Positions 35,210 through 58,894 of a stretch of DNA of 64,000 nucleotides are shown one piece after another. This DNA comes from Streptomyces sp. SS1-1. Its GTDB lineage: Bacteria; Actinomycetota; Actinomycetes; Streptomycetales; Streptomycetaceae. The translations under genes and the position numbers were made by a program. The stretch covers positions 5,248,501-5,312,500 of the forward strand of contig NZ_WBXN01000004.1 of assembly GCF_008973465.1 (NCBI RefSeq). Direction: 5' to 3'. Within the stretch, counting starts at the first letter, position 1; every line of letters begins with the position of its first letter. Under the pieces are notes generated by a model. The model was given only the letters and a program-made list of their open reading frames with translations, made no database searches and was not told where the DNA came from.

Positions 35210-35665
35210 GTGGCCGACAACGCGCGTGCCAAGAGGCTGGCGGACCTCATCCGAGAGGTGGTGGCCCAGAAGCTGCAGCGCGGGATCAAGGACCCGCGGC
35301 TCGGCTCGCACGTCACCATCACGGACACCCGCGTCACGGGTGACCTGCGGGAGGCGACCGTCTTCTACACGGTGTACGGCGACGACGAGGAGCGGGCGGC
35401 CGCGGCGGCCGGCCTGGAGAGCGCCAAGGGCGTCCTGCGCTCCGAGGTCGGCCGGGCCGCCGGGGTGAAGTTCACCCCGACCCTCACCTTCGTCGCCGAC
35501 GCCCTGCCGGACACCGCCAAGACCATCGAGGACCTCCTCGACAAGGCGCGCCAGTCCGACGAGAAGGTCCGCGAGGCGTCAGCGGGCGCCCGCTACGCCG
35601 GTGAGGCCGACCCGTACCGCAAGCCGGGCACCGAGGACGAGACGGACGGCGACACCGCGGAATGA
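35210..35665 (+). CDS. rbfA: Ribosome-binding factor A
   Basis: This 151-residue KH-type protein binds the 30S subunit near 16S helix 1 during late maturation. It shows ARAKRLADLIREVVAQKLQRGIKDPRL at the start, followed by VTITDTRVTGDLREATVFYTVYG. The acidic, Glu/Asp-rich tail is common in actinobacteria. The start is GTG 35210, with SD AAGGAGA. The stop overlaps truB (ATGA at 35662-35665). Confidence 0.93.
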   Translation: MADNARAKRLADLIREVVAQKLQRGIKDPRLGSHVTITDTRVTGDLREATVFYTVYGDDEERAAAAAGLESAKGVLRSEVGRAAGVKFTPTLTFVADALPDTAKTIEDLLDKARQSDEKVREASAGARYAGEADPYRKPGTEDETDGDTAE

Positions 35666-36567
35666 CGCAGAAGAACACCACGCCCGACGGCCTTGTCATC
35701 GTCGACAAGCCGTCGGGCTTCACGTCGCACGACGTGGTCGCCAAGATGCGCGGCATCGCCCGCACCCGCCGGGTCGGGCACGCCGGCACCCTCGACCCGA
35801 TGGCCACGGGCGTGCTCGTCCTCGGCGTCGAGAAGGCGACCAAGCTGCTCGGTCATCTGGCCCTGACCGAGAAGGAGTACCTGGGCACGATCCGCCTGGG
35901 CCAGACCACGGTCACCGACGACGCCGAGGGCGAGATCACGGGGTCCACGGACGCCTCGAAGGTCACCCGCGACGCCGTCGACGCCGGGATCGCCAAGCTG
36001 ACCGGCGACATCATGCAGGTCCCGTCCAAGGTCAGCGCCATCAAGATCGACGGCGTGCGCTCCTACAAGCGGGCCCGCGAGGGCGAGGACTTCGAGATCC
36101 CGGCCCGCCCGGTCACCGTGTCGTCCTTCTCGGTGTACGACGTGCGCGACGCCGTCGCCGACGACGGCACCCCCGTCGTCGACCTCGTCGTCTCCGTCGT
36201 CTGCTCCTCCGGCACCTACATCCGGGCCCTCGCCCGCGACCTCGGTGCCGGCCTGGGCGTCGGCGGGCACCTCACGGCCCTGCGCCGCACCCGCGTCGGG
36301 CCGTACAAGCTGGACGCCGCGCGGACGCTCGACCAGCTCCAGCAGGAGCTCACGGTCATGCCGATCGCCGAGGCCGCCACGGCGGCCTTCCCCCGCTGGG
36401 AGATCGACGCCCGGCGCGCCCGGCTGCTCACGAACGGCGTGCGCCTCGACATGCCCGACGAGTACACCGGCGCCGGACCCGTCGGGGTCTTCGACACCGA
36501 CGGCCGCTTCCTCGCGCTCGTCGAGGAGCACAAGGGCAAGGCCAAGAGCCTCGCCGTGTTCGGCTGA
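35662..36567 (+). CDS. truB: tRNA pseudouridine-55 synthase
   Basis: This 301-residue enzyme makes the universal pseudouridine 55 in the T-loop of tRNAs. The catalytic motif is GHAGTLDPMATG, with nucleophile D45. KPSGFTSHDVV at the N-terminus and a C-terminal PUA-like domain (about 220-300) are present. Translation is coupled with rbfA through ATGA. A hairpin that includes the stop codon closes the operon. Confidence 0.96.
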   Translation: MTQKNTTPDGLVIVDKPSGFTSHDVVAKMRGIARTRRVGHAGTLDPMATGVLVLGVEKATKLLGHLALTEKEYLGTIRLGQTTVTDDAEGEITGSTDASKVTRDAVDAGIAKLTGDIMQVPSKVSAIKIDGVRSYKRAREGEDFEIPARPVTVSSFSVYDVRDAVADDGTPVVDLVVSVVCSSGTYIRALARDLGAGLGVGGHLTALRRTRVGPYKLDAARTLDQLQQELTVMPIAEAATAAFPRWEIDARRARLLTNGVRLDMPDEYTGAGPVGVFDTDGRFLALVEEHKGKAKSLAVFG

Positions 36568-36609: not shown

Positions 36610-36837
36610 CGGGGTCGTCCTCTGCCCGCCGCTCCACGGTCCCCCCTCGGTTCCCCCACCCCTAGGGTTATCCACCCACCCCCGTCTGTTCACCCGTCCG
36701 GGCAGGCGCTCGGAGTGAACCGAGGGGGTGCAAGGGGGCGCGTTCGGCACGAGGCCTGTCCCGCTGATCATGTGCCGCCTACCGTCGAGGCGACAGGGTG
36801 GGCGACGAGCGTGCGGGTGCGGGGCGGAGGTTCGACG

Positions 36838-39800
36838 ATGGCGGGACGGGGCCCGCGGGCGGCGGACACGGACGGGACACGGGGGACGGGCGCCGGCCCG
36901 GAGCAGCCCGACGGGGCCACCGCGTCCCACCGGGCGCGCCGCGCGCGTCCCCACGACGACGGCAGCCCCCGGCACGCACGCCGCCGCCCGGACGCGGAGC
37001 CCGACGTGCCGGGTCCCCTCCTCCGGGACGACGCCCTGGTCCGCGTCCACGACCCGGCCGGACGGCCCCGCGGCCTCGGCTTCCTCGCCGACCACCAGGG
37101 CACCGTCGTCACCGCGCACGAAGTCGTCGACGGGCTGTCCCGGCTCGTCGTGCACACCGCCGGGGGCAGCCGCAGCTGTGTGGTGACCGCCGACGCGGTG
37201 ACCCCGCTGCCCGAGCGCGGCCTCGCCCTCGTCCGCACCGAGGGGCTGGGCGTCGACCCCCTCCCGGTGACCGTGCGGGACCACTGCGGGACCGGCACCT
37301 ACGTGCACATCCCGGCCGGCGGCTGGCGGCAGGCCCGCGTGCTCGACGCCACTCCCGCCACCCGCCCGGCGACCGACCGCCACCCCGCCCTCGACGGCGT
37401 CCTGGAGCTCGCCATCGGCACCGCGGGCCGGGACGCCCTGCGGCTCGGCGGAGGCGCCGCCGGCGGACCCGTGCTCGACGCCGCGACCGGCGCCGTCCTC
37501 GGCGTCCTCGGCACCGCCCTGCGGTCCGCCCACAGCGACGCCGTGCTCGCCGCACCCCTGCGGCCCGCCCCGGACGGCCCGCTCGCCGCCCTCCTCGCCG
37601 GCAACGCCGCCACCGTGCCCGCCCACGGCGCCGACCTGAACCTCGCCGGAGTACTGGAGCTGACCGCCACCCAGGTCGCCCAGGACGCCCCGCCCTCCGG
37701 GACCCTGGCGCCTCCCGTCCAACGGGACGCCGTGACCGCCGAGTTGGACGCCTTCCTCGCGGGCCGGGCCCCGGTCCTCGGCCTCGTCGGACCGCCCGGC
37801 AGCGGCCGTACGACGGAACTCGCGGGGCTCGCCGCCCGGCGCACCCACGGACCCGACCCCGCGCCCACCCTGTGGCTGCGCGGCGCCGACCTCGCGAGCG
37901 GCGACACCTCCGTCGCCGACGCCGCCCGCCGGGCGCTCGACCGTGCCGCGCGCATCGTCGCCGCCTCCGCCGCCGGCGCCGACCTCGCCGCCGACCTCAC
38001 CCCCGAGCGCCTCGCCCGTCTCGCCCGCGACGCCGGGCGCCCCCTGCTGCTCCTGCTCGACGGGCCCGAGGAGACGCCGCCCGCCGCCGCGGACCACCTC
38101 GCCGACTGGACCGGCGCCACCGCCCGCTGGCTGCGCGACCACGGCGCCCGGCTGGTCGTGGCCTGCCGGACCGAGTACTGGGAGACCGCCGGCGCCGCCT
38201 TCCCCCAGGACCTGCTGCACACGCCCGCCGGTCACCCGCCCCATGCACCCGTCCCGCCCTGCCTCACCCTCGGCGACCTCACCCCGGAAGAGGCCCGGCA
38301 GGCCCGCGCCCGCCACGGCATCCCGGACGACGCCCTCACCGACGCCGACGCCCGCCACCCCCTGACCCTGCGCCTCCTCGCGGAGGTGAGCGCCGCCCTG
38401 CCCGGCGCGCCCACACCCCACCGGGCCGACCGGCACGACGTCCTCTCCGCCCACCTCGACCTGATGTGCCTGCGCGTCGCCGTCCGTCTCGCCGCCGAGA
38501 ACGGCCTGCGCGGCACCGCCGTCCGCCGGCTCGCCGCCCGGGTCGCCGGCCAGGTCCACGAAGCCGCCCGCCGCAGCCTCGGCACCGGCCACGGCGAACT
38601 GGACCGGCCCACCTTCGAGGCGATCTTCCCCTGGGGCCCCACGCCCAGCTGGCTCGGCGGCACCACCGGCTGGGCCGGCGCCGTCCTCACCGAAGGACTC
38701 CTCGTCCCCGCCGGCGACGGCTACCGCTTCGCCCACGAGGAACTCGCCGACTGGCTCCAGGGCCTCCACCTCGACCTCGACGACGCCCTGCGCACACTGC
38801 TCCGCCCCGGACCCGCCGGCACCACGGACCACCCCGCCCCGCCCGTACCGCACCACCGCATCGGCCCCGTCCTCCAGGCCCTCCTGCTCCTCCCACGCCT
38901 CCACGGCACCGACCGGCTCGGCGACCGGCTCGCGCGGCTCTCCGACGCCCTCGACACCGACCGCACCGACTGGTGGGCGGCCCGGCTGCTCACCGAGACC
39001 CTGCTGCGCGTCCCCGACGCCACGCCCTATCTGGACGTCCTGCGGCTGACCGCCGACCGGATCGTGGCCTGGCGACGGCAGGGCCACCCCGCGCCCGCCG
39101 ACCTCGGCCCCGCCTTCTGGACCGCGCTGCCCCTCCCCGACACCGAACGCCTCGACCTCCTGCGCCGCCTCGTCCCCGCCGACGGCCCCCTCGACGACAC
39201 CGAGGGACCCCGGCCGCCCCGCTACCTGGACGCCGTCGCCCGGCTCCTCGCCGCCGACCCCACCGCCGTACAGCCCCGGCTCACCCACTGGTTCGACGAC
39301 GACCGGCCGCTGCCCGCCACCCCGCACGCGACCGTCGCCCTCGCCGCCCAGGCCCTGCTCCACACCCACCGCCACCGCGCCCTCGACGACCTCACCGAGA
39401 CCCTCGTGGCCAGCGCCCACCCCCGCGCCGACGAACTCCTCGGCGCCCTCGCCGAGGAGGAGCCCTCCGCCGTCTGCCGGGCCGTGGACCGCTGGGCCCA
39501 CGACGAACGCCCCTCCCGGCGCGTCGCCGCCCTCGCCCACGGGCTGCGCGCCGCACCCCACGTCCGCACCGAGGCCGACCGTGCCCTGCTGCGCTACGCC
39601 GCCCTCGCGCTGCTCGCCCGCCCCGCCGACAGCGCCCTGCACGGCGGCGCCCTCGCCCTCCTCGTCCGCGACCCGCACACCCGCGCCCGCCATCTGCCGC
39701 AGGCCCTCGCGCACTTCACGTCCGCCGACCCGCAGTTCCCGCCCAGCGCCCTCGTCGCCGCCCTCGCCACCCACCCCGAACCGGTCCTGGAGGCGTTCCG

Positions 39801-40422
39801 CGCCCGCCTCGAACGGCCCGGCACCGGCGCCGTACTGCGCTCCCTCGCCGACGTCACCGCGCCCGGCCTCGCCCGCAAGGTCACCGGCCTCGTCCGCGAC
39901 GCGGTACAACGGCACCCCGAGACCGCCACCGACGTCGCCGCCTACATCGACCGGTCCCTCGACCAGGGACCCGGCGCCCGGGCCGTCCTCTTCCCGCTCG
40001 TCACCGGCCTCCTCGACGGCGGCCCCGAACAGGTGCGGGCCGCCCTCGCCACCGTGCTCGCCGCCCCCGGCACCCCCTCCTCCCGCGGACTGCGCCGGGA
40101 ACTCCTCGACTTCCTGCTCACCCGTGAACAGGCACCCACCGTCCTCGAAGCCCTGCTGCGGGCCGCCGTCCGCACCACGGGCACGGCGGCGGACGACACC
40201 CTGCGCGACCTCGTCCACCACACCGGGCTGCTGCTCGTCCGCACCCCGGACGGCGCCGCCCGCTTCGACCGGAGCCTGGTCGACCTCGCCCGGGAGGTCC
40301 CCGGCTTCGCCGCGCGGGTCGCCGGCTGGCTCACCGGCACCCCACGGGACTGGGCGGCCGTCGTCGGCCCCAGCACCCGCCGCATGATCGAGAACCTGGC
40401 GGGCGTCCGGGTCCCCGTCTGA
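36838..40422 (+). CDS. Very large NTPase with degenerate trypsin-like domain and helical repeats
   Basis: The protein has 1194 residues from ATG 36838 (SD GGAGG at 36826-36830). Residues 65-235 look like a trypsin-type fold. H94 in TAHEVV fits the catalytic His, but the Asp position reads GLALV (about 128-132) and the GxSGGP motif reads G206-A-A208-G-G-P, so it cannot be an active serine protease. Residues 300-560 are a STAND/AAA-like NTPase with Walker A G318-PPGSGR-T325 (Arg for the usual Lys) and Walker B LLLLLD408. The last 600 residues are Leu/Ala-rich helical repeats. The role is unknown. It stands between truB and ribF. Confidence 0.75.
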   Translation: MAGRGPRAADTDGTRGTGAGPEQPDGATASHRARRARPHDDGSPRHARRRPDAEPDVPGPLLRDDALVRVHDPAGRPRGLGFLADHQGTVVTAHEVVDGLSRLVVHTAGGSRSCVVTADAVTPLPERGLALVRTEGLGVDPLPVTVRDHCGTGTYVHIPAGGWRQARVLDATPATRPATDRHPALDGVLELAIGTAGRDALRLGGGAAGGPVLDAATGAVLGVLGTALRSAHSDAVLAAPLRPAPDGPLAALLAGNAATVPAHGADLNLAGVLELTATQVAQDAPPSGTLAPPVQRDAVTAELDAFLAGRAPVLGLVGPPGSGRTTELAGLAARRTHGPDPAPTLWLRGADLASGDTSVADAARRALDRAARIVAASAAGADLAADLTPERLARLARDAGRPLLLLLDGPEETPPAAADHLADWTGATARWLRDHGARLVVACRTEYWETAGAAFPQDLLHTPAGHPPHAPVPPCLTLGDLTPEEARQARARHGIPDDALTDADARHPLTLRLLAEVSAALPGAPTPHRADRHDVLSAHLDLMCLRVAVRLAAENGLRGTAVRRLAARVAGQVHEAARRSLGTGHGELDRPTFEAIFPWGPTPSWLGGTTGWAGAVLTEGLLVPAGDGYRFAHEELADWLQGLHLDLDDALRTLLRPGPAGTTDHPAPPVPHHRIGPVLQALLLLPRLHGTDRLGDRLARLSDALDTDRTDWWAARLLTETLLRVPDATPYLDVLRLTADRIVAWRRQGHPAPADLGPAFWTALPLPDTERLDLLRRLVPADGPLDDTEGPRPPRYLDAVARLLAADPTAVQPRLTHWFDDDRPLPATPHATVALAAQALLHTHRHRALDDLTETLVASAHPRADELLGALAEEEPSAVCRAVDRWAHDERPSRRVAALAHGLRAAPHVRTEADRALLRYAALALLARPADSALHGGALALLVRDPHTRARHLPQALAHFTSADPQFPPSALVAALATHPEPVLEAFRARLERPGTGAVLRSLADVTAPGLARKVTGLVRDAVQRHPETATDVAAYIDRSLDQGPGARAVLFPLVTGLLDGGPEQVRAALATVLAAPGTPSSRGLRRELLDFLLTREQAPTVLEALLRAAVRTTGTAADDTLRDLVHHTGLLLVRTPDGAARFDRSLVDLAREVPGFAARVAGWLTGTPRDWAAVVGPSTRRMIENLAGVRVPV

Positions 40423-40456: not shown

Positions 40457-40488
40457 CATGCCGATGCGGGCCGGGGGCCGTCGGCATG
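40457..40488 (+). terminator. Hairpin behind the large NTPase gene
   Basis: CATGCCGA (40457-40464) pairs with TCGGCATG (40481-40488), and the stem extends with one bulge. It lies 35 bases after the stop codon and upstream of ribF. Confidence 0.5.
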
Positions 40489-40566
40489 GCACCCTTAGAC
40501 CTGCGTAAGACCGTTTGGGCAATGACGGACACCGGTTCGACGAGTTTGCGACAAGGAGCAGGCACA

Positions 40567-41523
40567 GTGCAGCGCTGGCGTGGCTTGGAGGACATCCCCC
40601 AGGACTGGGGGCGCAGCGTCGTCACCATCGGTTCCTACGACGGAGTCCACCGCGGACACCAGCTGATCATCCGGCACGCCGTGGACCGCGCCCGGGAGCT
40701 GGGCGTCCCGGCCGTCGTCGTCACCTTCGACCCGCACCCCAGCGAGGTCGTCCGCCCCGGCAGCCACCCGCCCCTGCTCGCCCCGCACCACCGGCGCGCC
40801 GAACTGATGGCCGAGCTGGGCGTCGACGCGGTGCTGGTCCTGCCGTTCACCACCGAGTTCTCGAAGCTGTCGCCGGCCGAGTTCGTCGTCAAGGTCCTCG
40901 TCGACAAGCTGCACGCCAAGGCGGTCGTCGAGGGCCCCAACTTCCGCTTCGGGCACCGCGCCGCCGGGAACGTCGAGTTCCTCGCCGAGCAGGGCAAGAT
41001 CTACGACTACGAGGTCGAGGTCGTCGACCTGTACGTCAGCGGCGAGGCGGGCGGCGGCGAGCCGTTCTCCTCGACCCTGACCCGCCGTCTGGTCGCCGAG
41101 GGCGACGTCGCCGGGGCCGCCGAGATCCTGGGACGCCCGCACCGGGTGGAGGGCGTCGTCGTGCGCGGCGCCCAGCGCGGCCGCGAGCTCGGCTTCCCCA
41201 CCGCCAACGTGGAGACCCTGCCGCACACCGCCATCCCCGCCGACGGCGTCTACGCCGGCTGGCTGCACGCACAGGGCGAGGTGATGCCGGCCGCCGTCTC
41301 CGTCGGCACCAACCCGCAGTTCGACGGCACCGAGCGCACGGTGGAGGCGTACGCCATCGACCGCGTCGGACTCGACCTGTACGGGCTGCACGTGGCCGTG
41401 GACTTCCTCGCCTTCGTGCGCGGCCAGGAGAAGTTCGACTCGCTGGACGCGCTCCTGGAGGCCATGGCCCGGGACGTGCAGCGCTGCCGTGAGCTGATCG
41501 CGGCGGCCGACGGACCGGCCTGA
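40567..41523 (+). CDS. ribF: Bifunctional riboflavin kinase / FAD synthetase
   Basis: This 318-residue enzyme makes FMN and FAD from riboflavin. The N-terminal nucleotidyl-transferase domain has IGSYDGVHRGHQ and GPNFRFGHRAAG. The C-terminal kinase domain has GRELGFPTANVE and VSVGTNPQFDGTERTVEAY. The start is GTG 40567, with SD AAGGAG at 40553-40558. Its place behind truB is typical in actinobacteria. A perfect 19-base terminator follows. Confidence 0.96.
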   Translation: MQRWRGLEDIPQDWGRSVVTIGSYDGVHRGHQLIIRHAVDRARELGVPAVVVTFDPHPSEVVRPGSHPPLLAPHHRRAELMAELGVDAVLVLPFTTEFSKLSPAEFVVKVLVDKLHAKAVVEGPNFRFGHRAAGNVEFLAEQGKIYDYEVEVVDLYVSGEAGGGEPFSSTLTRRLVAEGDVAGAAEILGRPHRVEGVVVRGAQRGRELGFPTANVETLPHTAIPADGVYAGWLHAQGEVMPAAVSVGTNPQFDGTERTVEAYAIDRVGLDLYGLHVAVDFLAFVRGQEKFDSLDALLEAMARDVQRCRELIAAADGPA

Positions 41524-41599: not shown

Positions 41600-44500
41600 C
41601 TACTGCTGGGTCCAGCCGGGCGGCACGACGCCCGGCTGCTGCCCCTGCTGCGGTTCCTGCGGCGGCGGCGGGGCCTGCTGCTGCCACTCCTGACCCGGTG
41701 CCGGCTGCTGCGGCGCCTGCTGCCAGCCCTGCCCGGGCTGCGGGGCGCCACCGGGCTGGGCGTACGGCTGCTGGGGCTGCGGCTGGCCGGGCTGCTGCGG
41801 GTAGCCCTGCTGCTGCGGGTGCTGGTACTGCAGATGCGGGTTGCCGAAGCCCTGCTGGGTGCGCGCGATGTCCTCGGCGATCAGGGCGGCGAGGTCGAAG
41901 TACGCCTCACGCGTCTTGGGACGCATCATGTCGAGGTCCACCTCGGCACCCGCGGAGAGGTGCTCGTCGAAGGGGATCACGACGACACCGCGGCAGCGCG
42001 TCTCGAAGTGCGCGACGATGTCGTCCACCTTGATCATCTTGCCCGTCTCACGGACACCCGAGATCACGGTGACCGACCGCTGCACGAGATCCGCGAAGCC
42101 GTTCGCCGACAGCCAGTCGAGCGTCGTCGAGGCGCTGCTCGCGCCGTCCACCGACGGGGTGGAGATGATGATCAGCTGGTCGGCGAGGTCGAGGACCCCG
42201 CGCATGGCGCTGTAGAGCAGACCGGTGCCCGAGTCCGTGAGGATGATCGGGTACTGCCGCCCCAGCACCTCCAGCGCGCTGCGGTAGTCCTGGTCGTTGA
42301 ACGTGGTGGAGACGGCCGGGTCCACGTCGTTGGCGATGATCTCCAGACCGGAGGGCGCCTGCGAGGTGAAGCGGCGGATGTCCATGTAGCTGTTGAGCTG
42401 CGGGATCGCCTGGACCAGGTCGCGGATCGTCGCACCCGTCTCGCGCCGCACCCGCCGGCCGAGCGTGCCGGCGTCCGGGTTGGCGTCGATCGCGAGGATC
42501 TTGTCCTGCCGCTCGGTGGCCAGCGTGGCGCCCAGCGACATGGTCGTCGTGGTCTTGCCGACACCGCCCTTGAGGCTGATGACCGCGATCCGGTAGCAGG
42601 ACATCACCGGCGTCCGGATCAGACCGAGCTTGCGCTCGCGCTCCGCCTGCTCCTTCTTGGCGCCGAGCTTGAACCGGGACGGGCCCTGGTTGTTCTTGCG
42701 GGCCTTCGGCTGGTTGCGCAGCAGACGGTCCGACGACAGCTCCACGGCGGCGTTGTAGCCGAGCGGGGTGCCGGGCGCGGCTTGCTGCTGCTGCGGAGCA
42801 CCCGGACCGGCCTGCGGACCGGGCGGCGCCGACCAGCCGCCCTGACTGCCGTACGCGGCGGGGGTCTGCGGAGCCTGCGGCTGGGGCTGCGGCTGGGCCG
42901 GGGGCTGCTGCGCGGCCGGCTGCTGGGGCTGCGCGGGCTGGCCGGGCTGGCCGGGCTGCTGGGGGTAGCCGTAGCCCGGCTGCTGCTGCGGGTAGCCGTA
43001 GCCGGGCTGCGGCTGGCCCGGCTGCTGCGGATAGCCGTAGGGCTGGGGCTGACCCGGCTGCGGTGCCTGCTGCTGGGGGTGGGGCTGCGGCTGTCCGGGC
43101 TGCTGCGGGTAGCCGTACGGCTGCTGCGGCTGGCCCGGCTGGTGCGCCTGGCGGGGGTCCACGGGCTGACCGGGCTGGCCCGGCTGCGGCTGGGCCGGGC
43201 CGAACCCGCCCTGCGGCGGGGCCTGCTGCGGCTGGGGCTGCGGCTGGCCGGGCTGCTGCGGATAGCCGTAGCCGGGGGCCGGCGGGGCGCCCTGGGCGGG
43301 CGGCTGCGGTACGCCCTGCTGCGGCGCGCCCGGCTGGGGGTGCGCGGGCACGAAACCCTGGGGCAGCGGCGGAAGCGGCTGGCCGGGCTGCTGCTGTCCG
43401 ACGGGCTGGGTGTGCGGCTGCTCACCCGGAGCCGCGGGCGGCTGCGCGGGAGCGCCGGGCTGGGCGTGCGGCGGCATCGGGGCCTGGCCGGGCGCCTGGG
43501 CCTGCGGCTGCTCGGGCGCGGGCGCGGCGGGCTGCGCTTCCGGCTCGGCGGCGGGCGCCGCCTCCGTGGTGGCCGACGCGGCCTCGGGCTGGACGTCGGT
43601 CTGGACCTCGGGCTCGGGCTGAGCCGGGGCGGCTTCGGGCTGCGGCTGCGGGGCGGGGTCGGCCTGGGCGGTGTCGTCGGCCGCGCCGGACGCGGTGGCG
43701 GGCTCCGGCTCGGCGTTCTGCTCCGGCTCCGGCTCGTCGTCGTCCCCGCCGAACAGGCGGGCCGCTTCGGCGTCGGCGGCGGCGTGGTTGAGCTCGGGCT
43801 CGGGCTCCGACCGCTCGGGCTCGGGCGCCTCCGCCACCGGGGGGACGGGGGCGGGCGGCTCGGGCGCGGCGGGGGCCTGGGCGCTCTCGTCGACCGGGCG
43901 CAGCACCGGGAAGCCGGGCGCGGCCGGGGGAACGGAGGGGGCGGCCGGGGGAACGGAGGGGGCGGCCGGGGGAGCGGCCGGTGCGGCGGGCGGAGTCGCG
44001 GGCGCGGCGGGCGTCGCCTGCTGGGGCGCCTGGAAACCGCCGGAGGTGTCCTGGGCCTGCTGGGGTGCGGGGGTGGTGGGCTGCTGGGGGTAGCCGTAGG
44101 CGCCGGGGGTGTTCGGCTGAGGCGTGCCGAATCCGCCGGAGGTGTCCTGGGCCTGCTGGGGTGCGGGGGTGGTGGGCTGCTGGGGGTAGCCGTAGGCGCC
44201 TGGGGTGTTCGGCTGAGGCGTGCCGAATCCGCCGGAGGTGTCCTGGGCCTGCTGGGGTGCGGGGGTGGTGGGCTGCTGGGGGTAGCCGTAGGCGCCCGGG
44301 GTGTTCGGCTGAGGCGTGCCGAAACCGCCGGAGGTGTCCTGGCTCTGCTGCTGCGGCGCCGCCGGACCGGGCTGCTGCTGCGGGTAGCCGTACGCGCCGG
44401 ACGCCGGGGCCGCGCCCGGGACGGACTGCTGCTGGGGGAAGCCGTAGCCACCCGCGGTCTGTCCCTGCTGCGGCGCGGCCGGGGTGCTCGGGGCCGGCGC

Positions 44501-44734
44501 CGGGACCGTGCCGGGGGGACCCGTGGGCGTCCCGACGGGCGGGCCGGTCGGCGGCGGCGGTGCCGCCCCCTCGGCCTCCTGCTGACCGCTCGGCGAGGAG
44601 CCACCCTGCGTGCTCTGGGCGTACCAGGCGGGAGGTGTGTAGACGATCTCGAACTCGCCCGTCAGATCCACCTCGTGATCGTCCCCGTCCGAGGAAGGGC
44701 TCCCGCCGTTGTACTCGGACCGATCCCTGTTCAC
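41600..44734 (-). CDS. EspI-like MinD/ParA-type ATPase with Pro/Gln repeat region
   Basis: The protein has 1044 residues from GTG 44734 (SD AGGAGG). About 690 residues of Pro/Gln/Ala-rich sequence include a 32-residue tandem repeat ([20 protein letters not shown]...) and many YGYPQQPG units. The MinD-type ATPase domain follows, with deviant Walker A K722-[24 protein letters not shown], and [10 protein letters not shown]. It ends in a second Pro/Gln-rich tail. Mycobacterial EspI has the same plan (Pro-rich region plus MinD-like ATPase) and serves ESX secretion. The genes next to it are EccE and EccB, so this is its likely role. Confidence 0.82.
44041..44340. repeat. 96-base tandem repeat in the EspI-like gene
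   Basis: Three nearly identical 96-base units start at 44041, 44137 and 44233, and a partial unit starts at 44329. The units encode 32 residues each, in frame. Copy number can therefore change without frameshift. Differences between copies are single bases, indicating recent expansion. Confidence 0.92.
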
Positions 44735-45057: not shown

Positions 45058-45897
45058 TCAGTCCATCCGGCGGGCCACACCGAGCAGCCCCGTCTCCGCG
45101 TCGGTGGGCTCGGTCATCACGAACTTCTGGTGCTTGCGCGTACACCACAGCGCGACACCGTCGTGCAGCGTCGGAAGATGCTGGAGGTGCTCCTCCGGGA
45201 TGCCCAGCGTGTCCTTCACGGACTCCGTCTCGTACGGCGAGATGCGCTGGATGCCCACGAGGTGCGCCTGCGCCAGCCAGCGCGGCGCGTGCTCGCTGAC
45301 GAACGGCAGCACCGTCACCACGGACTGCCACGGCACCGACGTCACCCGCCCGCGCGGCGGACGGATACCGCAGTCCCGGATCAGCACGACCGGACTGGAC
45401 ACGGACGGGCCCTGCGCGGGCACCCGGCCCACCGGATACACCGTCACACACTGCTGACCGCCGCCGGCCGCCTGCGCCAACTGCTGCCACGCCTGCGGAC
45501 GTCCGGTCTCCACACCGACGCGCGCCCCGGTCGCGGCGGCCCGTAGCGCCAGCACCTGCGCCAGCCACAGACCGCCCACGAGCACGACGTCGAACGGAGT
45601 GGGACGGGCCAGACCGAGCACCGCCGGCTGCGACTCCGCGTCGGTGCCGATGAGTACGCCGTCGTCACCGATCGGCATGCTGATGGCCGCGAGCTCGTCG
45701 ACCGTCACCACATGACGGTTGCGGCGCGGGCCGCGCAGCCCGAACCCCGGGCTGAAGATGCGCCGTTGACGCTGCGGCGCCTCCGGCTGCCGGATGATCG
45801 GGATCATGCCGGTGTCGGTCGGGGAGGCCACATGGGCCGGGGTGCCGGGGGCGCGGCCCTGCTGTCCCGGGGGCATGGTCGGAGCGGGCTGGGACAT
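45058..45897 (-). CDS. Type VII secretion locus protein of unknown function
   Basis: The protein has 279 residues from ATG 45897, which overlaps the EccE stop (ATGA), so the two are translationally coupled. A Pro/Gln-rich start is followed by TVDELAAISMPIGDDGVLIGTD, a Rossmann-like strand-helix-strand (FDVVLVGGLWLAQVLALRAA), an EGVETGRPQAW-like region (VGVETGRPQAW), and strands VVLIRDCGIRP and VVTVLPF. A tail ends LGVARRMD. No membrane segment or P-loop is seen. It may be an adaptor that works with EccE. I do not know a named family. Confidence 0.7.
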   Translation of the reverse strand: MSQPAPTMPPGQQGRAPGTPAHVASPTDTGMIPIIRQPEAPQRQRRIFSPGFGLRGPRRNRHVVTVDELAAISMPIGDDGVLIGTDAESQPAVLGLARPTPFDVVLVGGLWLAQVLALRAAATGARVGVETGRPQAWQQLAQAAGGGQQCVTVYPVGRVPAQGPSVSSPVVLIRDCGIRPPRGRVTSVPWQSVVTVLPFVSEHAPRWLAQAHLVGIQRISPYETESVKDTLGIPEEHLQHLPTLHDGVALWCTRKHQKFVMTEPTDAETGLLGVARRMD

Positions 45898-47228
45898 CAG
45901 TACGTACCTCCGAGCGGCAGAGTGGCGAGGGCTCCGGGGACCTGCTCCCGGTCGAGGCGGACCAGGCCGACCTTCGCTGCGCTCGCGGTCCGCTCCAACT
46001 CCCGGCCCACCTGGCCGAGTTCGTCGTCACCGCGCGCGGTGACACGGATGTGCCCGGTGAGGGCGACACCCCGGTTGCCCGCCTTGCTCAGGGTCATGCT
46101 GAACGTCGTCGCCAGCACCGGCAGCGACGTGAACCGCGTCACCAGCTCCGGCAGCGCCACCCCGCCGGGGCCCAACTGCGGCCAGCGGGACACCCAGTAC
46201 GTCGTGTGCCACCGGTCGTCGACCCGCCAGGTCCGCACCGCCTCGACGGTACGGCGCTGGGTGCGCCCGTCCTGGCCGTGCTGCTGGTTGGCGCGCGGGT
46301 TCAGGCAGCTCGACGTCGCGAGCGCCTGGACCAGTTCGGTCTCGTCGAGGATCGTCGCCTTGAAGCCCGCGCCGGCCAGCCGGCTCGCCAGCTGGTCCGC
46401 CACCCGCAGCAGGGCGCGCTGCGTACCCGGGACACCGTCCCCGCGCGCCTTCACCGCCTCCGGGCACAGCTCCGGGTCCAGCTTGAGGGCCACCCAGGTC
46501 AGCCGCAGCGCCGGCGAACCGGACTGCGCCTGGAGCGGGCCGTAGGAGCGCGCGGCGAGCGACTGCGACGGAAGGTGCGGCGCGGGCGCCGGCTGGGTGT
46601 GCTGCACGACCTGCACGGAGGCCAGCCGGATCCCGTCGACCTCCAGGGCGTCCTGGATCAGCCTCAGCGGCAGCTGCCGTTCGCCCGCTCCGGGCCGCAG
46701 CGGCTGGTCGCCGGGCTGCACGAAGAGCACGGCCGTCAGGAACGTGCCGTCGCCGATCATCCCGATCGAGCGATCGTCACGGGAGACGAACGAGTAGGTC
46801 CGCAGGGCCGGGTCGCACTCGACCACCGGCACCAGCATGGCGTCCGTCCCCGGCGGCACGGGCAGTTTGGCGTCCCGCCGGCGCTGCCGCAGGGCGCGCG
46901 TCGTCTCGTACCACTCCGGCAGCGGACGGCGGCCGCGGCGCAGCACGGCGAGGAGCAGCAGCAGCGCGGCCACGGCACCGGCCGGGGCCAGCAGCCAGGA
47001 CGTCCCGACGGCCCAGGCGGCGACCATGACGGCCACGGCCAGCTCCACCAGGATCAGCTGCTGCAGACGGACCGGACCGAGCCCGCCCGGGCGGGGGAGC
47101 GTGCGCGGCGAGGCGGCGGAGGGAGCGGGGGACGGGGCGGGCGTACGTCTGCCGTCCGGGCCTCCCGGTTGCTGCGGTGCGCGGCGTCCGCGCCGAGTGC
47201 TCGTAGCGCTGCTCATCCCCCGGGACAT
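45897..47228 (-). CDS. eccE: Type VII secretion membrane protein EccE
   Basis: The protein has 443 residues from ATG 47228 (ATG 47216 is an alternative, and neither has a well-spaced SD). A basic Pro-rich start is followed by two transmembrane helices at about 55-105 (LILVELAVAVMVAAWAVG, LLAPAGAVAALLLLLAVL) and then a large soluble domain of the EccE type (PF11203; RRGRRPLPEWYET, DDRSIGMIGDGTFLTAVL, WHTTYWVSRWP). EccE is the peripheral subunit of the ESX core with EccB, EccC and EccD. It is divergent from eccB. Confidence 0.87.
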   Translation of the reverse strand: MSRGMSSATSTRRGRRAPQQPGGPDGRRTPAPSPAPSAASPRTLPRPGGLGPVRLQQLILVELAVAVMVAAWAVGTSWLLAPAGAVAALLLLLAVLRRGRRPLPEWYETTRALRQRRRDAKLPVPPGTDAMLVPVVECDPALRTYSFVSRDDRSIGMIGDGTFLTAVLFVQPGDQPLRPGAGERQLPLRLIQDALEVDGIRLASVQVVQHTQPAPAPHLPSQSLAARSYGPLQAQSGSPALRLTWVALKLDPELCPEAVKARGDGVPGTQRALLRVADQLASRLAGAGFKATILDETELVQALATSSCLNPRANQQHGQDGRTQRRTVEAVRTWRVDDRWHTTYWVSRWPQLGPGGVALPELVTRFTSLPVLATTFSMTLSKAGNRGVALTGHIRVTARGDDELGQVGRELERTASAAKVGLVRLDREQVPGALATLPLGGTY

Positions 47229-47589
47229 CCCTTTCGCGAAGTAGTGGCCGTCGGGCGGGCGGGAACCGCTGTCCCGGATCCCGGCGCCGGGCCAGGGGCT
47301 TCATCGGCCCACACCATCCATGCGGGTGGCTCACGGTACCCGCTGCGGCACCCCGGGCGACACAGGGGACACCCGGACCCACGGACGGCACCCCAGCCCC
47401 GGACGGCCAGCCTGCCATGGTCCGCGCCCGCGTGGTGGAGGGCTGTGGAGAAGCTCTGTGAAGATGCCGGGGCCTGTCCACACCTGAGGGATCGTCGGCA
47501 CGCGGCGCAAGGCATAGTAGGTCCCTGCACGGCCGTTGCGGCCTTTTCGAGCGCGATCGAAGCATCACCAAACGGGAGATACGGGGACC
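47229..47589. other. Divergent intergenic region between eccE and eccB
   Basis: These 361 bases must carry both promoters. No coding sequence is convincing. A CATAGT at 47513-47518, 72 bases before the eccB start, is a possible -10 but lacks a convincing -35 partner. There is no strong inverted repeat. The eccB SD is GGGAG (47574-47578). Confidence 0.45.
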
Positions 47590-49152
47590 ATGGCAAAGCG
47601 TCGGGACGAGCTCGCCGCCTACACGTTCGCTCGCAAGCGCACCGTCGCGGCCTTCCTGGCGCCGTCGCCGGGCGGCTCGGAGGAAGGCGCCCCGCGGCCC
47701 GTGCGCACGGTGATGCCGAGCCTCGCCGTCGGAGTGGTCCTGGTCATCGGCTTCATCGCCTGGGGCGTGATCAAGCCCACCGCTCCCAAGGGCTGGGACA
47801 CCCCCGGCGAGTACATCATCGTCGACAGCGACTCCACGACGCGCTACGTGGTCCTCGACCCGAACCCCAAGGACAGCAAGGTGGAGAAGGTCCTCCACCC
47901 GGTTCTCAACTACGCGTCCGCGAAGCTGCTGTTGGACAAGGGCAAGGGAAGCGTCCTCGAGGTCCCCGGCAAGGAGATCGACAAGAGCGGCATTCGCCAC
48001 GGCGCGACCATCGGCATCCCCTACGCGCCCGACCGCCTCCCCTCCAAGGAGGACGCCGAGAAGACCAAGACCTGGGCGGTGTGCGAGCGTCCGGCGCCTG
48101 GCTCCAAGGCGGCCATCGACCGCGCGGTGTTCGTCTTCGACGACAGCGACGCCAAGTCCCTGGAGGGCGCCGGGAAGGTCGACCCCCGCGAGGCCCTGTA
48201 CGTCACCGACAGCAGGACCAAGGCCGAGTACCTGGTCGACAGCAAGGGGAACCGCTTCCTGCTCGGCGGGAAGTCCGGCCTCGACGAGACCTCGATGGAG
48301 CAGCTGCGGTCCGCCGTCATCGGCAGCAGCGCCACCACCGACCCGCAGCCGGTGAGCCAGGAATGGCTCAACACCCTGAACGACGGCGGGGACATCACCT
48401 TCCCCGTCGTGCCCGGCGCCGGCGGGCGGACCGCCGTCCAGGGGCTCCCCGCCGAGGCGGGCACGATCGGCCAGGTGCTGCGGGCCCGGGACGCCCAGGG
48501 CGAGCAGTTCTACATCGTCCTGAAGGACAAGGTCGCCGCCGTCTCGCCGTTCGTCGCCGCCCTGCTCGTGGCCCGCGACGAGAACGGCGCCCTGAAGGTC
48601 GACACCCGCGTCGTCATCGAGGCCAACGGCGGCCGCGCCGACCGCTTCTACGCCGACAAGGGCTGGCCCGAGATCGTCCCCCGGCAGGCCAACAGCGCCA
48701 ACCCGGCGACCGGCGCGGCGGCCAGGACGTCCTGCAGCGTCTACAAGGGCGCCTTCGACGGCAGTACGCCCACTCTGGCGGCCTGGGCGGGGGCCGACTA
48801 CCCCAAGAAGGTCATCACCGACTCGCTGAGCGCGTACGTCTCCTCCGGCTCCGGCCTGCTGTTCCAGGAGGTCTCCGGTACGGCCGCGGGCGGCGGGGCG
48901 ACGTATCTGCTGACGGACACGGGTCTGCGGTACTCCCTGCCCAAGGGCAACGACAGCGAGGCGCAGAGCCCGGCCGCGGCGGCCGGCGGCGGCTCGTCCC
49001 AGGGTGAGGCGAGCGAGACCGACAAGGCCCGTACCCGGCTGGGGTACGAGGACCTCAACCAGCCCGCGGTCGTGCCGCAGACGTGGGCGACGTTCATCCC
49101 CAAGGGACCGACGCTCGACACGGCGGGCGCGGCGCAGCCGCAAAGCCAGTGA
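47590..49152 (+). CDS. eccB: Type VII secretion membrane protein EccB
   Basis: The protein has 520 residues. The N-terminal signature AKRRDELAAYTFARKRTVAAFL is typical of EccB. A single transmembrane helix lies at about 40-60 (SLAVGVVLVIGFIAWGVI). The large extracytoplasmic domain (about 75-450) is made of degenerate repeats, with one Cys pair position at ARTSCSVYKG. The C-terminus is Ala/Gly-rich. EccB is part of the membrane core. The esxB-like and esxA-like genes follow after 252 bases. Confidence 0.92.
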   Translation: MAKRRDELAAYTFARKRTVAAFLAPSPGGSEEGAPRPVRTVMPSLAVGVVLVIGFIAWGVIKPTAPKGWDTPGEYIIVDSDSTTRYVVLDPNPKDSKVEKVLHPVLNYASAKLLLDKGKGSVLEVPGKEIDKSGIRHGATIGIPYAPDRLPSKEDAEKTKTWAVCERPAPGSKAAIDRAVFVFDDSDAKSLEGAGKVDPREALYVTDSRTKAEYLVDSKGNRFLLGGKSGLDETSMEQLRSAVIGSSATTDPQPVSQEWLNTLNDGGDITFPVVPGAGGRTAVQGLPAEAGTIGQVLRARDAQGEQFYIVLKDKVAAVSPFVAALLVARDENGALKVDTRVVIEANGGRADRFYADKGWPEIVPRQANSANPATGAAARTSCSVYKGAFDGSTPTLAAWAGADYPKKVITDSLSAYVSSGSGLLFQEVSGTAAGGGATYLLTDTGLRYSLPKGNDSEAQSPAAAAGGGSSQGEASETDKARTRLGYEDLNQPAVVPQTWATFIPKGPTLDTAGAAQPQSQ

Positions 49153-49290
49153 CGAGGGACGGGGAATGGGAACGGGGGCCGGCCCGCCGGCTTCAACGAC
49201 CCGGTGTCGTACGCCATTTGAGCTAAGACGGCGCACGGGTCACAGCTTCGTCGCTCATGTGTGTGAGGCGTGTAACTGATTGGCCTCGCC

Positions 49291-49320
49291 TGTGGATGAG
49301 TGACAGGCTGACGATAGAGT
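49291..49320 (+). promoter_or_regulatory. Candidate promoter of the WXG100 gene pair
   Basis: TAGAGT (49315-49320) fits the -10 consensus of the main sigma factor and lies 85 bases before the start codon. A -35 is only weakly present (TGTGGA at 49291-49296, 18-base spacer). The 252-base gap after eccB makes an independent promoter likely. Confidence 0.4.
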
Positions 49321-49404
49321 GTTTGCAGCGCTCAAGCGTGCGAAGCAGCTCCGGGCAACGGCAACAGGGTTCCCGGACCAACGACGACATGGGGGAAGGT
49401 TCAC

Positions 49405-49716
49405 ATGGCCGGCCAGTTCCGGGTAACAGAGGACGAACTCACCAAGCTCTCCAGCGACATCAGCACCGCCAACGGTCAGCTGCAGGGCGAGATCCGCCGC
49501 CTCAACGGAGTGATCGACCAGATCGCGGGCGGCTGGAAGGGCCAGGCTGCCCAGTCCTACCGCCAGCTGCAGGAGCGCTGGAACGCGGACGCGAAGAAGA
49601 TGAGCGACATCCTCAACGACATCAAGGAAGCCGTGGACTCCACGCGGAGCAACTACTCCGCGTCCGAGGAGCAGCAGAACTCCGAGATCAGCAAGATCAT
49701 GTCGGACTTCGGCTGA
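49405..49716 (+). CDS. WXG100-family secreted protein (first of the Esx pair)
   Basis: The protein has 103 residues. It is a helical hairpin with W-K-G in the turn (AGGWKGQAAQSY, around residue 46) and the C-terminal export signal Y-S-A-S-E (YxxxD/E). It has no signal peptide, as expected for this route. Such proteins are exported as a heterodimer. The partner is the next gene. The SD is GGGGAAGG at 49392. I cannot tell with certainty which member is EsxA or EsxB. Confidence 0.93.
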   Translation: MAGQFRVTEDELTKLSSDISTANGQLQGEIRRLNGVIDQIAGGWKGQAAQSYRQLQERWNADAKKMSDILNDIKEAVDSTRSNYSASEEQQNSEISKIMSDFG

Positions 49717-49819
49717 TCGAGCCGACCGGTTCGCGTGTCGTGCCGTCCACCGGTATGACCCGTCCGCTCCTCCCTCTTTCCAGCGACTTTCCTCCGAATC
49801 TTCCTGAAAGGGAATGACG

Positions 49820-50104
49820 ATGTCGATCCTCGTCAATTACGCAACCATCACCAACGCGTCCACCGACGTGAAGTCGACGGCCGGCCGCATCAAGCAGCAG
49901 CTGGACGACCTCGAGGCCGCGGTCAAGCGTGTCGCCAACACCTGGGAAGGTGAGGCGCAGGAGGGTTACCAGCGCAAGCAGCGCGAGTGGGACCAGACCG
50001 CCGCCGACCTGCACGCCACCCTGCTGAAGATCTCCACCGCGCTGCAGAGCGCCGCCGAGAACTACCAGGCCACGGAGAAGAGCAACGCCTCCACCTGGGG
50101 CTGA
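49820..50104 (+). CDS. WXG100-family secreted protein (second of the Esx pair)
   Basis: The protein has 94 residues from ATG 49820. The ATG at 49814 is too near the SD GAAAGGG at 49806-49812. It has the turn motif W-E-G (NTWEGEAQEGY) and the tail motif Y-Q-A-T-E. It is the likely partner of the WXG100 protein 103 bases upstream. Both are cotranscribed and closed by the hairpin at 50143-50176. Confidence 0.93.
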   Translation: MSILVNYATITNASTDVKSTAGRIKQQLDDLEAAVKRVANTWEGEAQEGYQRKQREWDQTAADLHATLLKISTALQSAAENYQATEKSNASTWG

Positions 50105-50142
50105 GCCAGCCGGCGAGCCGGGGGACCTCGGATGAAGAGATG

Positions 50143-50176
50143 CGGCCCAGCCGACGCCAAGGCGTCCGCTGGGCCG
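50143..50176 (+). terminator. Terminator of the WXG100 pair
   Basis: CGGCCCAGC (50143-50151) pairs with GCTGGGCCG (50168-50176), and inside it GACGCC pairs with GGCGTC around an AA turn. This makes an almost continuous stem 39 bases after the stop. Confidence 0.75.
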
Positions 50177-50313
50177 ACCTCTGCTCCGGGGTCGTTCACA
50201 CCGTCTTACGGACTGCACACGGTAAATCCGCCGAATCTTCACATCGGCCGACGGAGCGGCGTACGCGCCGCCGGCCGGGACACCGTCGACAAGGAAGCCC
50301 TGGGGGCCTGGAC

Positions 50314-51600
50314 ATGAGGGGCCTGAACGTGGAGGGCCACAAGGCCGGTTCGCGTAGCGGCACGAGTGGCCGCACGAGTGGCCGCACGAGTGGAACCCGC
50401 GCACTGAAGCGGGTCCTCGGCGTGCTCGCGGTGACGGGTGTCTGCGTCACCGCGACACCGTTCGCCCCGACGGCGTCGGCGTCCGACGGCGGCGTCGACT
50501 TCGGTCTGTCGGCCAGCACCGAGTGCGTGTTCGGCGGCGACGTCATCAAGTCCACGCCCTGGTCGCTCCAGCGGATCCTCCTGGACCAGCTGTGGGAGCA
50601 CTCCACCGGCAAGGGCGTCAAGGTCGCCGTGATCGACACAGGCGTGGACAAGCGGAACCGTCAGCTGACGGCGGCCGTGACCGGTGGCAAGAGCTACGTC
50701 GACGGGGCCGCCGCCCGGGACATCGAGGGGCACGGGACACGCGTGGCGGGCATCATCGCCGCCCGCCCACTGAACGGCACCGGCTTCGTGGGCCTCGCCC
50801 CCGACGCCGACATCCTCTCCTTCCGCTACACGGGCGGACAGGAGAAGCAGGGCAACTCCCGCACGATGTCCCAGGCGATCGGCGCCGCGGTCGCCGCCGG
50901 GGCCGACGTCATCAACATCTCCTCGGACACCGCGAACCGGGAGGACAACGACCAGCTGCGCGCCGCCGTCGCCTCCGCCGTCCAGAAGGGCGCCCTCATC
51001 GTCGCGGCCGCCGGCAACGACGGGGCGGACGGCAAGTTCGCCGACACCTACCCGGCCGCGTACGACGGCGTCCTGGCCGTCGGCGCCTCCGACCGCAACG
51101 ACGAGCGGGCCTTCTTCTCACAGTCCGGCGACTTCGTGGACGTGGCCGCCCCCGGCGTCGGCATGGTCTCCACCGTCCCCGGCGGCGGCCAGTGCACCGC
51201 CGACGGCACGAGCTTCGCGGCGCCGTACGTCGCGGGCGTGGCGGCCCTGCTGAAGGAGAAGCACCCGGAGTGGAAGGCGGCCCAGATCGCCACCCGCATC
51301 GAGGAGACCGCCCAGCGCCCGGGCCGCGGCCCCAACGGCTTCATCGGCTGGGGCGTCGTCGACCCGGTGGCCGCCCTCTCGGACGACTCGACCCCGGGCA
51401 CCACACCGGAACCGGACCCACCGGTGAAGGCAGGGTCTGGCGGTGTCGTGCCCATGGCTGTGACGATGGGTGAGACCGAGGCAGAACGTGAACGCCGCAC
51501 CGCCGTCTACGTATTGGGCACAGGAGTGGCCCTGGCCCTCGTGATCGCGGGCAGCGGCGTGGCCGTCCGGGACTGGCGCACCCGACGGACCGGGCGATGA
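50314..51600 (+). CDS. mycP: Mycosin-type subtilisin protease (first of three)
   Basis: This 428-residue S8 peptidase of the MycP type is anchored to the outer membrane face. The Sec signal is at about 29-50 (after SGTSGRTSGRTSG, encoded by a 12-base tandem repeat). The triad is D108 (VIDTGVD), H140 (EGHGTRVAG) and S300 (GTSFAAPYVAG), with the oxyanion Asn in AAAGNDG. The single C-terminal transmembrane helix is at about 398-417. MycP processes or stabilises ESX components. Codon use is like the rest of the chromosome. The SD before ATG 50314 is weak. Confidence 0.92.
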   Translation: MRGLNVEGHKAGSRSGTSGRTSGRTSGTRALKRVLGVLAVTGVCVTATPFAPTASASDGGVDFGLSASTECVFGGDVIKSTPWSLQRILLDQLWEHSTGKGVKVAVIDTGVDKRNRQLTAAVTGGKSYVDGAAARDIEGHGTRVAGIIAARPLNGTGFVGLAPDADILSFRYTGGQEKQGNSRTMSQAIGAAVAAGADVINISSDTANREDNDQLRAAVASAVQKGALIVAAAGNDGADGKFADTYPAAYDGVLAVGASDRNDERAFFSQSGDFVDVAAPGVGMVSTVPGGGQCTADGTSFAAPYVAGVAALLKEKHPEWKAAQIATRIEETAQRPGRGPNGFIGWGVVDPVAALSDDSTPGTTPEPDPPVKAGSGGVVPMAVTMGETEAERERRTAVYVLGTGVALALVIAGSGVAVRDWRTRRTGR

Positions 51601-51654
51601 GCAGGCATCCGGGGATGCCGAGGACTTGGACAACAGGGGAGAGGACAACGGGGT

Positions 51655-52005
51655 ATGAGTAACGGAATGCGGGTCGATCTCAGCGCGCTGGATGAGGTCA
51701 TCCGGAAGCTGTGGACGCTGCTTGACGACATGGACAAGGCGGGGCAGACGTCGCGGTATAACACGGAGATCCCCGCGAGTGCTTTCGGCAACATTGCCAC
51801 GTTCAAAGAGGCGGGCGACCTCTTCGGTGCGCACAAGCAGGCCAAGGATGACCTCGAGCGCGCGATCAAGGGACTGCATGACCTGATCGACCGGTTCGGT
51901 AAGAGCACGTCCAAGGTAAAGGATAAATACACCGAGCAGGAATACGCGAACAAGCACCAAATGGGTGGTAACACAGGGGGCTCGGACGGCTCCTTCGCCA
52001 AGTAG
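51655..52005 (+). CDS. Small helical protein, probable type VII substrate or partner
   Basis: The protein has 116 residues from ATG 51655. Two long amphipathic helices (VDLSALDEVIRKLWTLLDDMD and FGAHKQAKDDLERAIKGLHDL) are separated by a loop containing Pro and Ala. There is no WxG turn. Near the C-terminus Y-T-E-Q-E fits the YxxxD/E export motif. It is followed by a Gly/Ser tail. Base composition drops here compared with the upstream genes. The long WXG protein gene starts 35 bases later, so the two probably form a pair. Confidence 0.75.
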   Translation: MSNGMRVDLSALDEVIRKLWTLLDDMDKAGQTSRYNTEIPASAFGNIATFKEAGDLFGAHKQAKDDLERAIKGLHDLIDRFGKSTSKVKDKYTEQEYANKHQMGGNTGGSDGSFAK

Positions 52006-52040
52006 TCCGATCGAGCATCACCTATTAAGGGAGAGTTCAA

Positions 52041-53492: not shown

Positions 53493-53499
53493 GTTCGAG

Positions 53500-53531
53500 C
53501 GGCGGCCGCACAGCGAGGTGTGCGGCCGCCG
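53500..53531 (+). terminator. Terminator behind the long WXG gene
   Basis: A perfect 13-base stem (53500-53512 with 53519-53531) with a 6-base loop lies 8 bases after the stop. Each arm contains a NotI site. Confidence 0.8.
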
Positions 53532-53571
53532 ACGGCTGTTGAGCCCGATTGGGTGAGTGAGGAGTGGAGTA

Positions 53572-54870: not shown

Positions 54871-54887
54871 CAGGAGTGCCTCGACTC

Positions 54888-54917
54888 GCGCCCCGGACAG
54901 AGTCACGCCCGGGGCGC
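54888..54917 (+). terminator. Terminator behind the second mycosin gene
   Basis: A perfect 9-base stem (GCGCCCCGG at 54888-54896, complement at 54909-54917) has a 12-base loop, 18 bases after the stop. Confidence 0.65.
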
Positions 54918-54960
54918 AGCCGTGTGCTCAACCGGCTGCGTGAAGGTGGCGGTGAGACTG

Positions 54961-55110
54961 ATGACGCGGCAGTGCGATTGGTGTGGCGGAGGTTGCAGGG
55001 CCGAAGCGCGACTGGCCGCTGCGGCGGAACCTAGCGGCGGTGTAGGGCCGGCAGCTACGGGCGGTCCGAGAGCGATGATCGAACACGTCGCGAGCGGAAT
55101 GGACGAGTAG
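54961..55110 (+). CDS. Possible small CxxC protein
   Basis: The protein has 49 residues from ATG 54961 (weak SD GGTGAG). It starts MTRQCDWCGGGC, a CxxC-type arrangement that could bind zinc, then turns Ala/Gly-rich. It lies in the 293-base gap between two mycosin genes. It could be a remnant of a longer zinc-binding protein or chance. No other coding signal is seen in this gap. Confidence 0.25.
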   Translation: MTRQCDWCGGGCRAEARLAAAAEPSGGVGPAATGGPRAMIEHVASGMDE

Positions 55111-55163
55111 CCGTCGTCCGCCGGTCCAAGCCGTACAGCTGAAGCTCAATAGGGAGCAAGGGA

Positions 55164-56459: not shown

Positions 56460-56461
56460 AT

Positions 56462-56488
56462 GCTCAGCGCAGTCCTTCAGTGCTGAGC
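56462..56488 (+). terminator. Hairpin behind the third mycosin gene
   Basis: GCTCAGC (56462-56468) pairs with GCTGAGC (56482-56488), with a 13-base loop and a short TT behind it. It is only moderately stable. Confidence 0.45.

Positions 56489-58531: not shown

Positions 58532-58894
<363 letters not shown>

Follow-up and report, generated by a model that had tools for sequence, protein, structure and literature searches.

We find that a gene of the bacterium Streptomyces sp. SS1-1, here called gene X, encodes a protein of 1194 residues in which an HtrA-like domain with a broken catalytic triad (a pseudo-HtrA domain), a NACHT-like NTPase with a winged helix, and a HEAT/ARM-type superhelix follow one another in that order, as sequence and predicted structure together show. 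The gene lies in a stretch of 64,000 nucleotides (contig NZ_WBXN01000004.1, positions 5,248,501 to 5,312,500), which we refer to as the window, of a 7.8 Mb genome. In its predicted structure, the protein is laid out as an NLR, with the pseudo-HtrA domain in the place of the effector. The reading that we favour, and to which we assign a probability of roughly 0.45, is that X is an NLR-like STAND switch, specific to the family and passed on mainly by vertical inheritance, whose pseudoprotease output is non-catalytic. Proteins of this kind are themselves known; what appears to be new in X, judging from the sequences aligned here, is the constant arginine of its Walker A motif, together with a protease triad that has been lost in different ways.

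A preliminary description of the window, made from its letters, had read the protein as a dead protease domain followed by a STAND-like NTPase and about 600 residues of helical repeats, and had named structure prediction as a check. The AlphaFold2 model, which covers residues 58-1194 (mean predicted local distance difference test score, pLDDT, 84.7; predicted template modelling score, pTM, 0.63), bears this out in outline: it folds into a beta domain of the HtrA kind, an NTPase core accompanied by a winged-helix region, and an all-helical superhelix of some 540 residues, so that the repeats are present but had been slightly overcounted. In VIA comparisons, the first 198 residues of the model match the protease Deg1 (3qo6; Z 19.6, root mean square deviation (rmsd) 2.7, 175 residues aligned), and model residues 201-717 match NLRP3 (8sxn; Z 18.6, rmsd 4.2, 393 aligned) and NLRC4 (4kxf; Z 18.3, rmsd 4.9, 396 aligned). 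The best 50 VIA matches include no Avs or bacterial NACHT chain, an absence that excludes nothing. Modelled separately, residues 655-1194 again form an all-helical superhelix (pLDDT 83.8), which resembles karyopherins and the PP2A scaffold in Foldseek and VIA (Z up to 10.4, with an rmsd of 12.7); this likeness may reflect a common helical-repeat arrangement only.

At the level of sequence, a Pfam scan of the protein finds Trypsin_2 (PF13365) at residues 79-223, with an E-value of 3.7e-6 and 28.2 bits against a cut-off of 27.6, and finds nothing else: no NACHT match up to an E-value of 1, no PDZ domain and no RNA-binding domain. X also falls outside the nine NACHT hits of its own genome, and its likeness to NACHT is a match of fold only. 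A profile built from 36 relatives of X found HtrA-like proteases among the sequences of the PDB; the NTPase part, compared with those sequences, returned nothing useful.

Our alignment of orthologues holds 170 rows from nine genera, 169 of which differ in the columns that were kept; the rows are not all independent, because a species may enter both as a named contig and under a genome handle. For the genus alignment, 110 loci gave 86 rows, frameshifted or N-terminally partial loci being left out; 50 later loci gave 45 aligned rows, and loci L111-L140 stand outside the alignment. In X itself, the residues are those of the preliminary description: the catalytic-site histidine is kept, the serine is replaced by alanine, and the aspartate is absent. 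Its place is taken by Gly128, in the context LPERGLALVR, which we align with what we take to be the corresponding motif of DegP, SDIALI. The first two features are traits of the family as well; the third belongs to X but not to the family as a whole, in which many rows keep the aspartate (Table 1). The full His-Asp-Ser triad is found in only four of the 170 rows (L147 of genus g22, and L250, L252 and L259 of genus g16), and the domain may fairly be called a dead protease.

The manner in which the triad is broken depends upon the genus. The window's genus has 115 rows, not one of them with a complete triad and two with the serine kept, and in none of the 17 rows of g27 is the serine kept. By comparison, g20, g21, g26 and g29 read His-Gly-Ser in 26 of 26 rows, the serine being kept and the aspartate lost; the ten rows of g16 divide into seven His-Gly-Ala and three complete triads; and the single row of g17 has lost all three residues. 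On a FastTree tree computed without the triad columns, the minimum number of changes is 5 for the serine, 24 for the aspartate and 2 for the intact or broken state, counts that rest on a tree with some long branches and do not distinguish gain from loss. The same triad has thus been broken at different residues in different genera, in a domain that is still conserved. Within it, 39% of columns are conserved at an identity of at least 95% among the 73 complete rows of the window's genus; the other parts of the protein range from 27 to 42%.

It might be argued that the domain is a protease still, acting through another nucleophile or in some lineages only, as the four complete triads and the conserved His94 would allow. 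However, position 208 shows no conserved alternative nucleophile, and 28 of the 32 rows with serine at that position carry glycine at the aspartate site. We therefore consider an active enzyme highly improbable. From the differing losses in a domain that stays conserved, we infer that catalysis has been lost and a binding role kept.

The Walker A motif of the NTPase, GPPGSGRT, has arginine in place of lysine, as had been noted for X, and the arginine is present in every row (including L172, which is frameshifted there, garbled after the protease domain, and thus uninformative in the NTPase part). The Walker B motif had been called intact, and so it is, with D408, E411 and E412 almost invariant. 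Beyond these motifs, H507 is found in 165 rows and P508 in 166; H633, which we place by assumption at a sensor 2-like position, is found in 141, with gaps in 13. The preliminary description had also called the protein degenerate. This word is misleading: since the Walker A arginine is invariant and the gene is under purifying selection, X is a stable variant rather than a case of decay. The nine NACHT hits in the window's genome, all weak, include two with a P-loop by pattern, both with lysine, which are too few to serve as a control; and among the papers listed in a literature search aimed at the point, no title dealt with arginine in a STAND Walker A motif.

We conclude that X is a real gene, because a GGAGG sequence stands 7 nt before its ATG, because its GC content at codon positions 1, 2 and 3 is 0.85, 0.58 and 0.95, and because the ratio of nonsynonymous to synonymous substitution rates (dN/dS) lies at 0.24-0.44 when each half of the gene is compared with six relatives. 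Long open reading frames (ORFs) overlap it in other frames, and they fit the coding GC pattern less well. The dN/dS values indicate purifying selection; those of the neighbouring genes are 0.15-0.22 (truB) and 0.10-0.25 (ribF). A BLAST search at an E-value of 0.001, confined to the window's own genome, found no paralogue. The counterpart in S. coelicolor is presumably SCO5710, and a literature search, that name included, brought up no described function for the gene among the papers listed, as judged by titles and the beginnings of abstracts.

The same data bear on whether X is a decaying pseudogene without function. Matches in more than one reading frame at six of 110 loci, and a few in-frame stops, would suit such a gene; but purifying selection contradicts it, most of the listed matches have long open frames, and the NTPase residues are nearly invariant, so that we find decay hardly credible. 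The six loci (L010, L020, L061, L094, L099 and L106) may represent sequencing errors or broken genes. A separate case is Streptomyces sp. SA15 (L109:4185-5912), whose frame of about 576 residues seems to be shortened inside, since both of its ends match.

By profile search, X is present in 260 of 297 sampled genomes of the family, distributed over nine of 17 genera, the other eight showing none. Among 394 genomes of the class, the matches outside the family number five, all short stretches with E-values of 7.3e-6 or weaker, and none of them is convincing. The related loci fetched from named contigs all belong to Streptomyces (80 of 80), the nearest being 92% identical. The place of the gene is conserved as well. 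Of the 128 loci with X, 104 have truB upstream on the same strand, 120 have ribF downstream, and no locus contradicts this order; the remainder is untraced, and many of the loci are cut. The gap between X and ribF is about 69 nt (median of 107 loci). In Streptomyces sp. VRA16 Mangrove soil (L075:9471-12311), about 2.8 kb separate the two genes.

The preliminary description had placed X in a housekeeping neighbourhood, correctly, and had named strict conservation of a housekeeping kind as something that would speak against its own reading. The gene is indeed widely carried, but its clean absences show that it can be dispensed with. X is lacking in 37 of the 297 genomes, and truB is found in 36 of those. 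We examined 30 of the 37 at truB, two of these loci (L186 and L195) ending near that gene: a match to ribF begins downstream within 0.9 kb of the end of truB in 27 (within 0.45 kb in 26 of the 27), and no remnant of X is detected at an E-value of 0.001 in any of the 30. Where X is missing, truB and ribF are thus usually adjacent. One X-negative locus (L190, genome G305) has a 1.5 kb truB flank with neither ribF nor X; another insert may therefore occupy the same site.

Distances between X sequences follow those of truB and ribF combined (Mantel r 0.736, n 66; none of 999 permutations reached this value). On the X gene tree, eight changes, the minimum, suffice for the nine genus labels. This distribution fits vertical inheritance with losses, or vertical inheritance with one acquisition inside the family, which is conceivable because eight of the 17 genera lack the gene. 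We considered X as a mobile gene and rejected the idea, as phage records contain no match and plasmid records contain a single fragment, 9% of X. That fragment (NZ_CP081497.1:1449945-1450274) comes from Streptomyces sp. BHT-5-2, where it sits on a replicon of 2.8 Mb at a place for which no gene is listed.

The conserved string of rbfA, truB, X and ribF on one strand invites the idea that X serves translation or ribosome maturation, like its neighbours rbfA, truB and infB. Yet the genomes without X almost all retain truB, ribF is no translation gene, and X lacks any RNA-binding domain in Pfam; we judge this role distinctly unlikely. X might instead be an accessory of the type VII (ESX) secretion locus, whose EccE, EccB, WXG100 and S8 subtilase genes lie beyond ribF. 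But ribF separates X from that locus, and X and EccB do not co-occur: both are present in 235 of the 297 genomes, X only in 25, EccB only in 34 and neither in 3, in a tally made by hand with unlisted genomes placed by elimination. An ESX accessory is therefore very improbable in our view.

The more serious question is whether X is an anti-phage STAND sensor of the Avs or bNACHT-like type, fixed on the chromosome, whose pseudoprotease would recruit or control a killer protein with its gene at another site. The NLR-like architecture would suit such a role, as would a dN/dS higher than that of the neighbouring genes; and for another STAND system it has been suggested that a trypsin-like protease is recruited by an adapter (PMC10907252). 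Against this, the best PADLOC match for X is OloA, with an E-value of 0.013, and ten selected neighbours gave one weak match (E-value 0.00025), on a ParA/AAA-type protein. The gene keeps its place between truB and ribF, diverges as its neighbours do, and has the near absence from phage and plasmid records described above; because it is syntenic and tracks its neighbours' divergence, it is unlike a typical island gene. The repeat region, moreover, shows a slightly lower conservation than the other parts (27-36% of columns at 95% identity, versus 33-42%) but is not hypervariable. A specific link to defence is thus not supported for X: a defence role is possible, but we consider it unlikely, and it is a weaker account than a domesticated switch.

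We therefore favour a domesticated regulatory switch, because the PADLOC matches are weak, because phages yield no match and plasmids one short fragment, and because X occurs independently of EccB. In such a switch, the superhelix would sense an endogenous or stress-related ligand, and a nucleotide bound at the arginine-type P-loop would hold the protein in one conformation, with slow hydrolysis or none. Upon binding its ligand, X would open and might oligomerise. The groove of the pseudoprotease could then bind a peptide or protein partner, either an active protease or a substrate that X would shield, without cutting it, and X would regulate a non-essential trait of bacteria of the Streptomyces family. 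Precedents for parts of this scheme are MamO, the inactive trypsin domains of VMAP systems, and LypA, all three treated below. A more specific proposal, doubtful but worth stating, is that an NLR-like sensor has been domesticated in multicellular bacteria with both of its chemistries disabled, the arginine P-loop serving as a structural latch and the HtrA pseudoprotease, broken at other residues from genus to genus, as a peptide-binding output. Its task would then lie in a choice made during development or under stress, and not in defence against phages.

Several points weigh against the switch. NLR-like architectures are often tied to defence. The dN/dS of X is roughly double the values for its neighbours truB and ribF, a difference that an arms race would produce too. 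Some relatives carry frameshifts (the six loci above) or in-frame stops, and the absence of the gene from 37 genomes means that it is no essential core gene. Furthermore, the K232A mutant of NLRP3 shows hydrolysis lowered about threefold and speck formation abolished (PMC9633759); an altered Walker A motif can therefore also mean a weakened protein. If the switch is nevertheless the right account, X may show that some bacterial NLR-like proteins are not phage sensors. With X, one could also ask in a natural setting whether an arginine P-loop can serve a STAND switch, and how HtrA domains become non-catalytic readers.

Table 1. Gene X, its parts and its immediate neighbours, by position in the window; residue counts refer to the 170 alignment rows.
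Feature	Position	Strand	Basis or counts
truB, upstream neighbour of gene X	35662..36567	+	Pfam
Ribosome-binding site GGAGG	36826..36830	+	direct read of sequence
Gene X (1194 aa + stop), encoding a pseudo-HtrA / NACHT-like STAND / HEAT-superhelix protein	36838..40422	+	ORF translation, model, dN/dS
N-terminal extension, residues 1-57, low-complexity, poorly conserved	36838..37008	+	many relatives' matches begin near residue 63
HtrA-like (Trypsin_2) domain, residues 64-250, catalytic residues lost	37027..37587	+	Pfam PF13365, VIA
His94, retained catalytic-site histidine	37117..37119	+	166 of 170
Gly128 at catalytic Asp position	37219..37221	+	G 87, D 64, N 17, A 1, S 1
Ala208 at catalytic Ser position	37459..37461	+	A 116, S 32, T 12, V 6, I 2, C 1, one other
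Predicted NTPase core, residues 311-450 (bounds set by us)	37768..38187	+	VIA match to NLRP3 8sxn
Arg324 for Walker A lysine (GPPGSGRT)	37807..37809	+	170 of 170, including L172, frameshifted there
Walker B LLLLLDGPEE, residues 403-412	38044..38073	+	D408 169, E411 168, E412 164
Predicted helical domain and winged helix, residues 451-655; HP at 507-508, His633	38188..38802	+	alignment, model
Predicted HEAT/ARM-type alpha superhelix, residues 656-1194	38803..40419	+	separate model, Foldseek, VIA
ribF, downstream neighbour of gene X	40486..41523	+	Pfam

The genes around X run in the order nusA, infB, DUF503, rbfA, truB, X and ribF; beyond ribF come a ParA-like gene and the genes for type VII secretion. 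The ParA-like gene (41600-44734, minus strand), at the edge of the secretion locus, encodes a protein of 1044 residues with a ParA/CbiA-type P-loop domain at 716-860; an ORF of 1092 residues that overlaps it on the plus strand fits the coding GC pattern less well. The secretion locus itself (45897-63744) contains EccE (45897-47228, minus strand), EccB (47536-49152, plus strand), three S8 subtilase ORFs and several WXG100-type ORFs. Elsewhere in the genome, which has 15 Trypsin_2 hits including X, a weak NACHT-like match and a Trypsin_2 match, about 1 kb from each other and in separate ORFs (G000:C4 4894946-4896755), possibly form a second protease-NTPase pair.

Two groups are among the known systems closest to X. 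The first is CARD-NLR, or LypABC, which joins trypsin-like and STAND-like ATPase domains; the LypA ATPase is described as lacking the conserved Walker residues, possibly binding ATP, and being needed for lysis (PMC13236601). LypABC, however, is made up of three proteins and includes a CARD-like domain, a peptidase that requires its serine, and a nuclease partner, whereas X is a single protein in which the protease is dead. No partners of the LypABC type were found among the scanned neighbours (nusA, infB, DUF503, rbfA, truB, ribF, the ParA-like gene, one unidentified ORF, EccE and EccB). The second group is the VMAP or iSTAND ternary conflict systems, for which inactive trypsin domains have been described in the effector place, as in X, along with an inactive STAND component. 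These systems are defined by MoxR and vWA partner genes, neither of which appears among the neighbouring ORFs of X scanned with Pfam, a part of those in the window; the inactive trypsin domains of VMAP have been proposed to be dominant-negative regulators or peptide binders (PMC7159879).

With the NACHT part of NLRP3 and NLRC4, X has in common the fold and a Walker B motif of the DGxEE type. It differs from animal NLRs in its Walker A arginine (human NLRPs have GxxGxGKT in all 14 members; PMC9633759), in an N-terminal pseudoprotease in place of a PYD or CARD, in its HEAT/ARM-type repeats, and in having no Pfam match to NACHT. With the HtrA/Deg proteases, finally, X has its N-terminal fold in common; but unlike them it has a broken triad, no PDZ match in Pfam, and a fusion to an NTPase and a superhelix. 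Another pseudoprotease of HtrA fold, MamO (5hm9), aligns with X at a VIA Z of 18.3 (rmsd 2.8, 175 residues), and is described as an inactive protein with non-catalytic roles: it switches on proteolysis that depends on MamE, and it binds metal (PMC4794232).

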